NCBI GenBank assembly: GCA_024655905.1
Contig: JANLFP010000002.1
Coordinates: forward strand, 197,829 to 261,828
Direction of reading: 5' to 3'
DNA: 64,000 nucleotides
DNA from: Tepidanaerobacteraceae bacterium
Lineage (GTDB): Bacteria; Bacillota; Thermosediminibacteria; Thermosediminibacterales; Tepidanaerobacteraceae
The position numbers and the translations under genes were made by a program. Below the pieces are notes generated by a model, which searched no databases, was not told where the DNA came from, and saw only the letters and a list, made by a program, of their open reading frames with translations. Below are positions 40,755-46,246 of this stretch, one piece after another (within the stretch, counting starts at the first letter, position 1; each line of letters opens with the position of its first letter).

Positions 40755-40784
40755 TTGACATAATTCGAAAACTGATGATAAAAT
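40755..40784 (+). promoter_or_regulatory. Promoter of the ilv-leu operon
   Basis: A perfect TTGACA (-35) and TAAAAT (-10) with an 18-base spacer. Transcription from about 40791 would give a leader of some 530 bases before ilvB, containing two RNA switches. Confidence 0.7.
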
Positions 40785-40874
40785 ACATATCAATAAAATA
40801 ATCGAGTGTAATCTCATAACTTCTTGATTATATTCCTTTTTTAGTTGATGCTTTTATTCAAAAAGAGTTATCTG

Positions 40875-40991
40875 TTATAGGAAGTGTACCTCAGGGTTCC
40901 GGCCGTAAGGTGTCTGAGACCGAGCGGTACAATCTAGGGTTATCCTTAGAACACCGTGAGCATAAAAAGCTCCAGCGGCAGGTTCCTATAA
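40875..40991 (+). promoter_or_regulatory. ppGpp riboswitch (ykkC subclass 2a) aptamer
   Basis: The core blocks of the ykkC RNA family are present in order: AGGGTTCCGG (40893-40902), CTGAGACCGAGCGGTAC (40914-40930), ACACCG (40951-40956) and GAGC-ATAAAAA-GCTC (40958-40972). Members of subclass 2a sense ppGpp and in Clostridia precede branched-chain amino acid genes, which is the context here. An outer helix pairs TTATAGGAA (40875-40883) with TTCCTATAA (40983-40991), nine perfect pairs; the 3' half lies in the loop of the following terminator hairpin. Ligand binding should stabilise this helix and block the terminator, giving an ON switch. PRPP (2b) is a less likely ligand. Confidence 0.8.
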
Positions 40992-41014
40992 ATTATTGCT
41001 GCTGGATTTTTTAT
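40971..41014 (+). terminator. Intrinsic terminator controlled by the ppGpp riboswitch
   Basis: Stem CCAGCGGCA (40972-40980) with TGCTGCTGG (40997-41005), one G-U pair, followed by ATTTTTTAT. Its 5' arm overlaps the last aptamer bases, and its loop contains the 3' half of the aptamer outer helix, so aptamer and terminator are mutually exclusive. Confidence 0.8.
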
Positions 41015-41029
41015 ACCCAAAAATGTAAT

Positions 41030-41291
41030 GACGGAGAGGAAAGCGGAAAACCGGAGAAAAAGAGAGCCGGGAAAGGTGAAAGCCGGTCGAAGGTTGCCGC
41101 TTTATGCTCGCTCCCGAACAGCCCGGATGAAATCGCAGTAGTCCGGCGCCGCTTTCAAGCGTTAAGATTGAAGTAGTGAGATCTACTTCCTGAGGCCCGA
41201 GCCGCAAGGCAGGGCAAAGCAGGGTGGTACCACGGGGTTAACTCCCCCCTCGTCCCTGAGAATTTTAGTTCTCGGGGCGGGGGGGTTTATT
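41030..41291 (+). promoter_or_regulatory. T-box leader, probably tRNA-Leu specific
   Basis: The T-box sequence AGGGTGGTACCACGG is at 41221-41235, followed by a terminator (GC-rich arms within 41244-41285, then TTTATTTTT). Stem I shows the pairing AAAGCGG (41040-41046) with CCGCTTT (41097-41103) and the distal GAGAGCCGG...GGTGAAAGCCGG element. Just after this helix on the 3' side is ATG-CTC-G, placing a CTC (Leu) triplet at 41107-41109 where the specifier should be. Uncharged tRNA-Leu would allow read-through into ilv-leu. The specifier was assigned by eye. Confidence 0.88.
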
Positions 41292-41317: not shown

Positions 41318-42982
41318 ATGAAAATTACTGCCGCGGAAGCATTGATAAGATCTCTGGAGATGGAAGACGTAAGTGTGGTGTTCGGATATCCCGGGGGAGC
41401 AATTCTTCCCGTATATGACTCCCTGCTTCATTCCAAGAAAATTAAACATGTCCTAACACGGTCCGAACAGGCGGCAGCCCATGCTGCCAGCGGTTATGCC
41501 AGGGTGGCCCGGAAGGTGGGCGTTTGCATGGCCACTTCGGGTCCCGGCGCCACTAATCTTGTCACCGGCATTGCGACAGCTTATATGGATTCAGTACCCG
41601 TTGTGGCCATAACGGGCCAGGTATCCACCAGCCTGATAGGGCGTGACGTTTTTCAGGAAGTGGACATTACCGGAGCTACGGCGCCTTTTACAAAGCACAA
41701 TTATCTTGTGAAAAAAGCGGAAGATATTCCGCGAATCGTCAAGGAAGCTTTTTATATAGCTTCGACAGGGAGACCGGGGCCGGTGCTCATTGATTTGCCT
41801 AAAGATGTGGCAGAGACCAGAATAGAGTTCAAATATCCCGAACAGATTGCGCTTCGGGGATATAAACCGAAACTTGATGGACACCCGCTTCAGATTTCAA
41901 GGGCTGCCGAAGCCATCAACAAAGCTCAGCGACCCGTTATATGCGCTGGAGGAGGGATAAATTCCGCCGGTGCTGAAGAAGAGCTTCTGAAACTCGCGGA
42001 AAAGGCCCATATTCCGGTGGCTACGTCACTCATGGGCATCGGAGCTTTTCCTGAAGACCACCCTCTTTCTCTGGGCATGATGGGCATGCACGGAACACCC
42101 TATGCAAATATTGCAGTAACGGAATCCGATCTTGTTATAGCTGCAGGAGCAAGATTCGGGGATCGATTGACCGGCAGGGTGACGGGGTTTGCTCCGAAGG
42201 CGAAAATAATTCATATCGATATAGACCCGGCGGAAATAGGAAAAAATGTAAAGGCGGATATTCCCATAGTCGGCGACGTGAAACGTATTCTTGCAGAAAT
42301 ACTGAAGGAGGTTCAGCCGAAACAGACATCCGAATGGAACGACCGTATTGCAGAACTTAAGAAAAAGTCTTTTTTATACAATAAAAATGACAAACTGTGT
42401 CCCCAGGAAATAATCGAGGCTCTCTCCTCAAAGACCGAAGGCAATGCCATAATTACTACGGAAGTTGGTTCCCATCAAATGTGGGTTGCCCAGTACTATA
42501 GATTTATTAAACCCCGTACCTTTATCAGTTCGGGGGGGCTCGGAACCATGGGTTACGGTTTGCCGGCAGCCATAGGAGCCAAATTTGCAAGGCCCGAGCA
42601 GAATGTCATAAATATATGCGGAGACGGCAGCTTCCAGATGAACCTGGCGGAGATGGCCACTGCCATGGAAAACAATCTTTCTCTGAAAATGATTCTGTTC
42701 AATAATAAAGGATTGGGCCTGGTAAGACAGCTGCAGGAATTTTACTGCAAAAAGCGTTACAGCCAAGTGAATTTCGGTTTTGTGCCGGACTTCGTGAAGC
42801 TTGCAGAAAGTTACGGAATCAAAGCAAAAAGAATAGACAGCAGGGAAGAATTGGATAATGCTCTGGATGAACTTATTTCTGAAAAGGGATGTTTTTTGCT
42901 GGAATGCATGGTGGACATAAACGAAAATGTCTATCCCATGGTTTTGAATGGCTCACCCATCAATGAGATGATAGGAGGATGA
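41318..42982 (+). CDS. ilvB: Acetolactate synthase, large subunit
   Basis: ThDP-dependent enzyme of 554 residues that makes acetolactate or acetohydroxybutyrate, the first common step to Val, Leu and Ile. Motifs: [28 protein letters not shown] with the catalytic Glu, [21 protein letters not shown], and the ThDP-binding [27 protein letters not shown] precedes ATG 41318. It is the first gene after the two RNA switches and overlaps or abuts ilvN, the regulatory subunit. Confidence 0.96.
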
Positions 42983-42987
42983 AGCCT

Positions 42988-43491
42988 ATGAAAACAACAT
43001 TGTCGGTTCTGGTGGAAAATCATCCCGGTGTACTGTCGAGGGTAGCTGGCCTTTTCAGCCGCAGAGGCTTCAACATTGACAGTCTGGCGGTGGGCACCAC
43101 CGAAAATCCCGAAATTTCCCGCATGACTATAGTGGTGGACGGGGATGAATATATTGTTGAACAGGTAAAGAAACAGCTGAACAAACTGGTGGATGTCATA
43201 AAGGTCAGCAAGATAATCCCTGAGGAGTCGGTGAGCCGGGAACTGGTATTGATTAAGGTTGATGCAGAGCCTCAGGTGAGGTCCGAAATCATTCACATAG
43301 CGGAAATTTTCAGAGCAAATATCGTTGATGTGAGCCGCAAGTCAATGATTATAGAGCTTACTGGAGACAAGGATAAAGTTAGTGCCTTTGAAGAACTCTT
43401 AAAGCCTTTCGGAATAAAAGAATTGGTCCGCACCGGCGTAATAGCCGTGAATAGAGGAACAAAAACAATAAAAATTGAGGAGGAAGAATAA
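42988..43491 (+). CDS. ilvN: Acetolactate synthase, small regulatory subunit
   Basis: Regulatory subunit of 167 residues: N-terminal ACT domain ([29 protein letters not shown]), the segment REL(V/A)LIKV, and C-terminal ALS_ss domain with [22 protein letters not shown]. It would confer Val feedback inhibition. ATG 42988 lies nine bases after ATAGGAGG; the ATG at 42979 overlaps the ilvB stop but abuts that site. The gene ends two bases before ilvC. Confidence 0.95.
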
Positions 43492-43493
43492 TT

Positions 43494-44492
43494 ATGGCGA
43501 AAATGTATTATGACAAAGATGCTGATTTGAAATTGCTGGAAGGCAGAACCGTTGCGGTCATAGGTTACGGCAGCCAGGGCCACGGTCATGCTCTGAATCT
43601 AAAGGACAGCGGAGTAAATGTGGTAGTAGGGTTGTATGAGGGCTCGAAATCCTGGAAAACAGCCGAAGAAGCCGGTTTGACCGTAAAGACCGTCAGCGAT
43701 GCAGCAAATGAAGCGGACATTATTATGATGCTTGTTCCGGACCATGTGCAGGCAAAAATTTATGAAGAAGAAATAAAACCCAACCTTAAAGAGGGCAATG
43801 CTCTGGCTTTTGCTCACGGATTCAATATCAGATACCATCAGATTGTACCCCCAGATTATGTGGATGTTTTCATGATTGCTCCCAAGGGGCCGGGACATCT
43901 TGTGAGAAGGATGTATGAACAGGGTGCAGGCGTTCCCTGCCTCATGGCGGTTGAGAAGGATTATACCGGCAGGGCAAAAGACATTGCTCTGGCTTATGCA
44001 AAGGGAATAGGCGGTACCCGGGCTGGAGTAATCGAAACCACCTTTGCGGAAGAGACCGAAACAGACCTCTTCGGCGAGCAGTGCGTACTATGCGGTGGTT
44101 TAACGGAACTAATCAGAGCCGGATTTGAAACCCTGGTCAATGCGGGATATCAGCCCGAAATCGCATATTTTGAATGCCTGCATGAAATGAAGCTTATTGT
44201 GGATTTAATATATGAAGGCGGTATCGGCTGGATGAGATATTCTATCAGCGATACGGCAAAATACGGCGACATCACTGTCGGCAAGAGAATCATAAATGAG
44301 GACACCCGCAGGGAAATGAAAAAAGTGCTGGATGAAATCATAACAGGTGAATTTGCCAGGAGGTGGATACTGGAGAATCAGGCAAATCGCCCCGTGTATA
44401 AAACAGTTCTTGCAAAAGAAGCCGAACATCCAGTTGAAAAAGTGGGAGCGGAACTTCGCAGCATGATGCCGTGGCTCAAAAAACAGAAGTAA
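43494..44492 (+). CDS. ilvC: Ketol-acid reductoisomerase
   Basis: NAD(P)H-dependent isomeroreductase, second step for Val/Leu/Ile. The 332 residues contain the Rossmann motif [27 protein letters not shown], the metal-binding [12 protein letters not shown] and YECLHEMKL region. This is class I (short form). GGAGGAAGAAT precedes ATG 43494. About 236 bases follow before leuA; no ilvD gene follows, unlike many ilv operons. Confidence 0.96.
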
Positions 44493-44728
44493 TGCGACAC
44501 CTGTGACCTTTCAGCTAGACGTTCTGAAGCTTGTACCATAGCTCCGCAGGATTGCGCCGCAAATTCGGAATAATGCTTCAATGCCGCCCCTGCTCGGCTC
44601 ATTTCAAGTTTAAGAACGTCTTCGGCTTAACTCCGCGCTGCATTTGAGCGGTGCGAACTATAAAAGAGGGAGTTTTTAAATCTGGATTCAAACAATCAAC
44701 AGTAATCAAAAGAAAGGAGGCATGTAAA
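44493..44728 (+). other. Spacer between ilvC and leuA
   Basis: This 236-base gap is the longest within the operon. I see no gene, no clear hairpin terminator and no convincing promoter; an in-frame extension of leuA to GTG 44651 exists but lacks a ribosome binding site. AAAGGAGG for leuA lies at 44713-44720. Confidence 0.4.
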
Positions 44729-46246
44729 ATGGCAAGAAGAGTTGAGATTTTCGATACCACCCTGCGGGATGGAGAACAGTCTCCGGGAGTGTCGCTGAAT
44801 TCCCATGAGAAGCTGGAAATAGCCAAGCAACTGGCAAAACTCCAGGTCAATGTCATAGAAGCAGGATTCCCCATAGCATCTAACGGAGACTTCAACGCCG
44901 TAAAGACAATAGCCGAAAATGTTAAAGGTCCCGTGATAGCCGGACTTGCCAGGGCAAACTTTAAGGATATAGATAGGGCTGCCGAAGCCATAAAAGCAGC
45001 GGAGCGGCCCCGCATTCATACGTTCATTGCATCATCTCCGATTCACATGAAATATAAACTCAAGATGACGCCCGAACAGGTGCTGGAAGCTGCCGAAGAA
45101 GCCGTAAAAAGGGCTAAATCTTATGTTGAAGATGTGGAGTTTTCGGCCGAAGACGCATCCAGATCGGAAATAGAGTTTCTCTGCAGGCTGTTTTCCGCTG
45201 CCATCCGTGCGGGAGCGACTGTTATAAACATCCCCGATACTGTGGGTTACGCCACGCCGGAGGAATTTGGCAAACTGGTTAGGACCCTTCGGGAAAGGGT
45301 TCCTGAAATGGATAAGGTAAAGATAAGTGTTCACTGCCACAATGATTTGGGCATGGCTGTGGCCAATTCCCTGGCAGCGGTGAAAAATGGCGCCGACCAG
45401 ATTGAATGCGCGGTAAACGGCCTGGGGGAAAGGGCTGGCAATGCCGCTTTGGAAGAAGTGGTAATGGCCCTCATTACACGAAAGGATATATACGATATAT
45501 ATTTAGACATAGAAACAAAGCACATTTACCGCACCAGCAAGCTGGTGAGCACCCTGTCGGGCATATATGTTCAGCCGAATAAAGCCATTGTCGGCGCCAA
45601 TGCCTTTGCGCATGAATCCGGAATCCATCAACACGGGGTGCTTTCGGAAAAATCTACCTATGAAATCATGACACCGGAATCCATCGGGCTTTCCTCAAAC
45701 AGGCTGGTGTTGGGGAAACTCTCCGGCCGTCACGCTTTTGCCCAGAGGCTGAAAGAAATGGGGTATGAACTGTCCGACGAAGAATTGAACAAAGCCTTTG
45801 AAAGATTTAAGGATTTGGCGGATAAGAAAAAGGAAATCACAGACAAGGATATAGAAGCACTGGTGGAAGACCAGGTTCTTAAAATACCGCAGCTGATTAC
45901 ATTGGAATATTTTCAGACTTCCAGCGGGAATCAAACCATATCCACAGCTACGGTAAAGGTAAGAATAGGAGAAAAAAGTGTGGAGGAAGCGGCCACAGGT
46001 GACGGCCCAGTTGATGCCACCTACAGAGCTCTTGAAAGAGCATGCAATATAGATTGCCGATTGGTGGATTATTCTATTAAATCCGTTTCCGGCGGCAAGG
46101 ATGCTATGGGCGAGGTCATCGTAAAAATAGAAAAAGACGGCAAAACTCATACCGGTAGAGGCTTGAGCACAGATGTCATCGAGGCCAGCGCTCTGGCATA
46201 CATCAACGCACTCAACAAGACCCTCGTAAACGGCAACGGTTCATGA
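44729..46246 (+). CDS. leuA: 2-isopropylmalate synthase
   Basis: Condenses acetyl-CoA with 2-oxoisovalerate, first step specific to Leu. The 505 residues contain [17 protein letters not shown] at the N-terminus, [18 protein letters not shown] with metal-binding His, [14 protein letters not shown], and the C-terminal LeuA allosteric domain ([24 protein letters not shown]) for Leu feedback. ATG 44729 has AAAGGAGG eight bases upstream. leuC follows 14 bases downstream. Confidence 0.96.

Follow-up and report, generated by a model that had tools for sequence, protein, structure and literature searches.

A probable ON riboswitch for guanosine tetraphosphate (ppGpp) precedes a leucine T-box in the ilvB leader of a Tepidanaerobacteraceae bacterium

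Aptamers of ykkC subtype 2 bind guanosine tetraphosphate (ppGpp) or phosphoribosyl pyrophosphate (PRPP): a G at position 96 specifies PRPP, its absence specifies ppGpp and the G96A change alone swaps specificity (PMC6031431). In the ppGpp riboswitch, the ligand stabilizes helix P1, named P0 in the crystal-structure paper (PMC6031431), and prevents propagation of the terminator, which makes it an ON switch (PMC10687018). Subtype 2a is linked to branched-chain genes and glutamate synthases (PMC5912903), and a ppGpp riboswitch followed in series by a leucine T-box (T-box-Leu), an order recorded in 15 cases, has been described as an AND gate (PMC9481103, PMC5912903). Here we describe the ilvB leader in a 64,000-nucleotide stretch of contig JANLFP010000002.1 (assembly GCA_024655905.1, positions 197,829 to 261,828, forward strand) from a Tepidanaerobacteraceae bacterium; we refer to the whole stretch as the window and number positions within it. 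This leader very probably contains a transcription-terminating ppGpp riboswitch of subtype 2a that lies before a tRNA-Leu T-box, works as an ON switch and takes part in AND logic.

A sequence-only reading of the window had proposed that a nine-base segment before the aptamer pairs perfectly with a segment in the loop of the first terminator, that the 5′ arm of this terminator overlaps the aptamer end and that the two folds exclude each other, as expected of an ON switch. Direct reading and folding of the sequence bore out its coordinates and geometry. The two segments form an exact 9-base-pair helix, P1 (Table 1), and in the minimum-energy fold of 40860–41020 the terminator pairs 40962–40969 and 40971–40981 with 40996–41014, leaving a 14-nucleotide loop (40982–40995) that contains the entire P1 3′ strand; the 5′ arm takes the 3′ strand of P4 and J4-1. 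The folding z of the aptamer–terminator region is −2.6. When the growing transcript was folded, the four-way junction with P1 appeared at a probability of 0.94 for transcript ends 40993–41002, and with the emergence of the terminator 3′ arm the P1 probability fell to 0.28 at end 41005 and 0.02 at 41008, so that the P1 state gives way to the terminator between ends 41002 and 41008. Breaking either P1 strand in silico abolished the helix, and a compensatory pair restored it to 0.96. Because the P1-forced fold is less stable than the terminator fold (−44.1 versus −49.2 kcal/mol), about 5 kcal/mol would have to come from ligand or kinetics. The two folds are mutually exclusive in the secondary-structure model, a conclusion supported by the anatomy, the growing-transcript folding, the in silico break and compensation, the conservation of the pairing and the published mechanism (PMC10687018).

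Taken alone, the single sequence lends the 9-base-pair helix only moderate support, because 1.3% of dinucleotide shuffles contain a match of at least nine bases between the two flanks in any register, which makes it unlikely by chance yet not decisive. We regard covariation in relatives as the decisive evidence for P1. Of 61 genomes searched at the DNA level, 21 contained relatives, and the same nine P1 pairs were scored in an alignment of 47 relatives (A1) against 500 shuffles and against slid registers. P1 cells were paired in 79.2% of cases compared with 66.5 ± 1.6% after shuffling, and double-sided changes occupied 77 cells compared with 41 ± 5.4; no shuffle reached either value (0/500). 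The covariation score was 0.439, as against 0.234 for shuffles and at most 0.235 for slid registers. Column pair 5/136 is AU in 18 and UA in 15 sequences, and pair 4/137 is UA in 12, AU in 10, GC in 9 and CG in 2. P1 is selected for, because its covariation exceeds that of shuffles and slid registers and the RNAalifold consensus fold includes it unaided. The pairing, whose lack of conservation had been named as grounds for abandoning the proposal, thus survived this comparison. Pure chance as the origin of the 9-mer was ruled out by the covariation.

The helix is the known P1 of ykkC subtype 2 ppGpp/PRPP aptamers and not a new device. A 2018 paper by Peselis and Serganov reportedly speaks in its title of an 'add-on helix'. 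All near-invariant columns of the ykkC core in the 47-sequence alignment (AGGGTTCCG, ACCGAG.GGTAC, ACACCG and the P4 purine loop) are present in the window aptamer, which scores 95.8 bits with a covariance model built from the same number of relatives (R1). The aptamer is of the ppGpp type because position 96, the one that specifies PRPP, is not a G: here the window reads CGGCAGG, compared with CGGGTAGG or CGGGGAGG in PRPP-type loci. A pattern scan of the named genomes returned at least 118 stretches with 117 distinct aptamers, which J4-1 divides, among the matches listed, into 52 of the PRPP type (GTA/GGA) and 65 without the G; all 30 ilv/leu-linked loci fall in the non-G group, and none of the 52 PRPP-type loci is so linked. 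The assignment to ppGpp riboswitches of subtype 2a is highly probable, jointly with the ON-switch and T-box reading as a whole, and ppGpp is the predicted ligand in this species.

Bound ppGpp would hold together the four-way-junction aptamer closed by the 9-base-pair P1. The terminator would then be unable to close, because P1 fixes its would-be loop and P4 and J4-1 retain its 5′ arm, and polymerase would proceed. In the absence of ppGpp, the 3′ arm would, on emerging at about 41003–41014, invade J4-1 and P4 and open P1, and transcription would stop at about 41014. Read-through transcripts would be tested again by the T-box; full expression of ilvBNC-leuA would therefore need both ppGpp and uncharged tRNA-Leu. 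Anatomy, growing-transcript folding and the published ppGpp mechanism (PMC10687018) favor the ON switch that had been predicted, with ON the presumed polarity in vivo.

The placement of the P1 3′ strand sets the window apart from most relatives. A terminator could be folded for 61 ppGpp-type relatives. In 52 of them the upper 5′ arm of the terminator pairs three or more of the five leading P1 3′ bases, and in 3, namely the window, L024 and L145, all five lie unpaired in the loop. The strand-in-loop arrangement is local and a small variation on the theme. In our model, the window terminator incorporates the P4 3′ strand and J4-1 directly, and P1 would be excluded by topology rather than by strand sharing. 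The only same-genus relative, the orthologous leader L009 (reverse strand of C52 in genome G001), has a 10-base-pair P1 and keeps the loop placement, and its P1, terminator and T-box start are nearly unchanged. Its aptamer core is eroded (GTGTACC to GCATTCC, AGGGTTCCG to AGGGCCAGG and AGCGGTACA to AACTGTATA), with P2a broken. A switch that has decayed or been re-targeted, or an error of metagenome assembly, may explain L009. We tentatively consider a further possibility, which we think rather doubtful: that this lineage shifted from strand sharing to topological exclusion, with a P1 of 9–10 base pairs blocking the terminator solely because forming both together would require an impossible pseudoknot, and that the eroded pocket of the sister copy hints at a changed or lost ligand.

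How much of P1 matters can be disputed, and so can the ligand. The inner five to six pairs are best supported, and the outer three vary more among species. Pairing past the sixth pair drops to 45–55% across all relatives; together with the chance frequency given above, this fits a helix in which only the inner four conserved pairs count and the remaining complementarity is a chance extension. We consider this improbable: many kinds of compensatory pair occur at pairs 5 and 6, with the counts listed above for the two column pairs, the whole-helix covariation lies above all 500 shuffles and the nearest relatives retain 6–10 pairs. A PRPP or guanidine-I riboswitch would have the same switch mechanics with another signal. 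The sole Rfam family that matches the aptamer is guanidine-I (RF00442, 40879–40979), at 29.7 bits against a gathering score of 63, with nothing better there even at loose E-values, and PRPP and ppGpp aptamers differ so little that one G96A change swaps them (PMC6031431). Guanidine-I aptamers, however, have no P0/P1 helix (PMC6031431), the J4-1 G of PRPP aptamers is missing here and at every ilv-linked locus, with none of the PRPP-type loci among the matches listed being ilv-linked, and the three copies in this genome lie next to branched-chain and glutamate genes. Gathering score, J4-1 type and gene context led us to reject both assignments, to which we give very little credence.

Several points count against a working ppGpp switch at this locus. 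At gathering thresholds, Rfam 15 has no match in the window, including none to a ppGpp/PRPP family (RF00442 reaches 29.7 of 63 and the T-box 80 of 93); a gathering-score rescan of 12 loci, mostly ppGpp/T-box leaders, left 11 of them without a passing match. Thermodynamic folding leaves out ligand energy, pseudoknots and kinetics, and ligand binding and termination by the window RNA are argued by analogy with the published mechanism. The L009 core is eroded with P1 and terminator kept, and a response to ppGpp therefore need not be common to all members. The persistence of terminator and T-box beside that decayed core would also suit a leader that acts mainly through its T-box, its aptamer–terminator unit being a relic or a constitutive attenuator. 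This seems to us scarcely credible for the window, which keeps every near-invariant aptamer position and its high R1 score. We favor a ppGpp-responsive ON switch ahead of the T-box.

Table 1. Features of the ilvB leader and operon, in window coordinates.
Feature	Position	Strand	Evidence
P1 (P0) 5′ strand, TTATAGGAA	40875–40883	+	exact complement of 40983–40991; covaries in relatives
P1 3′ strand, TTCCTATAA, within terminator loop	40983–40991	+	folds; covariation
Aptamer P2 (P2a–c), conserved GTGTACC..AGGGTTCCG..ACCGAGCGGTACA core	40885–40931	+	47-sequence alignment, near-invariant core; weak Rfam RF00442 match, 29.7 bits
Aptamer P3 hairpin	40933–40950	+	ON-state fold
Aptamer P4 hairpin (CCGTGAGC ATAAAAA GCTCCAGCGG)	40954–40978	+	ON-state fold, alignment
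J4-1 end (CAGG), without G at PRPP-specifying position 96	40979–40982	+	J4-1 comparison; G96 rule (PMC6031431)
First intrinsic terminator; 5′ arm takes P4 3′ strand and J4-1	40962–41014	+	minimum-energy fold, full-length segment
Putative sigma-70-type promoter, TTGACA-18-TAAAAT, TG before −10	40755–40784	+	11/12 consensus matches; position fits leader start near 40790
T-box leader, specifier CTC (Leu), antiterminator/terminator to about 41291	41019–41260	+	RF00230, 80 bits, E 1.1e-17, full length, below gathering score 93
ilvB, acetolactate synthase large subunit	41318–42982	+	TIGR00118, 815 bits
ilvN, acetolactate synthase small subunit	42979–43491	+	TIGR00119, 228 bits
ilvC, ketol-acid reductoisomerase	43494–44492	+	TIGR00465, 482 bits
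leuA, 2-isopropylmalate synthase	44726–46246	+	TIGR00973, 772 bits

Two expression platforms, independent of each other, lie in series in this leader, the riboswitch terminator and the T-box terminator at about 41244–41291. Stem I with its specifier, the AGGGTGGTACC antiterminator and the terminator of the T-box are all present, and the specifier loop reads ATG-CTC-G-CTCC, in which CTC is a leucine codon. The four genes that follow were named by NCBIfam matches, and three frames after leuA resemble leuC, leuD and leuB by eye. Between the promoter and the aptamer, 40800–40874 includes what may be a hairpin (AATCGAG..CTTGATT), with a T-rich run after it.

The covariance model from the 47 relatives finds three aptamers in this genome, preceding ilvB in the window, a branched-chain amino acid ABC substrate-binding protein and a glutamate-synthase-like amidotransferase domain protein (the latter two named by eye from translations); judged by these predicted products, all three stand before genes of the kind usually found with ppGpp riboswitches. 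The third copy (L180, G000:C13:10812-10921) is divergent, of the ppGpp type and scores 72.9 bits. The genome encodes one RelA/SpoT protein of 736 amino acids. Elsewhere, L006/L142 of Thermosediminibacter litoriperuensis and L008 carry a ppGpp aptamer and then a T-box with an ATC (isoleucine) specifier before an ilvE-like gene, and at L122 (2414–2630) a ppGpp-type aptamer is followed by a T-box whose specifier is seemingly GTC (valine), before ilvN-ilvC. The review of tandem arrangements pairs ppGpp only with T-box-Leu (PMC9481103).

The locus is of modest interest for its loop placement and its eroded sister copy. Relatives, most of which have the P1 3′ strand in the terminator arm and a few in the loop, form a natural series for asking whether strand competition is needed or topological exclusion is enough. 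A reader given only raw sequence correctly inferred the alternative fold, and the prediction is testable. Like the ppGpp riboswitch of Clostridiales bacterium oral taxon 876 (PMC10687018), the window element has a four-way junction closed by P1, opposes a ppGpp-stabilized P1 to a terminator in an ON arrangement and precedes branched-chain amino acid genes, which are typical targets of the class; unlike in that riboswitch, its whole P1 3′ strand lies unpaired in a 14-nucleotide loop, and its P1 has 9 base pairs. It shares with the T. mathranii PRPP aptamer and its ppGpp-binding G96A mutant (PMC6031431) aptamer ends that pair, stack on the P3/P4 stem and are involved in the expression platform, whereas the T. 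mathranii wild type binds PRPP and has the G at position 96 that is absent here. We found no difference between the window, with its CTC (Leu) specifier, and the ppGpp/T-box-Leu tandem AND gates (PMC9481103, Table 2; PMC5912903, Fig. 6C), in which a ppGpp aptamer with its terminator and then a T-box with its terminator likewise precede branched-chain genes. The locus leaves knowledge of ppGpp riboswitches unchanged and is a sound further example of a kind of switch that has been described before.
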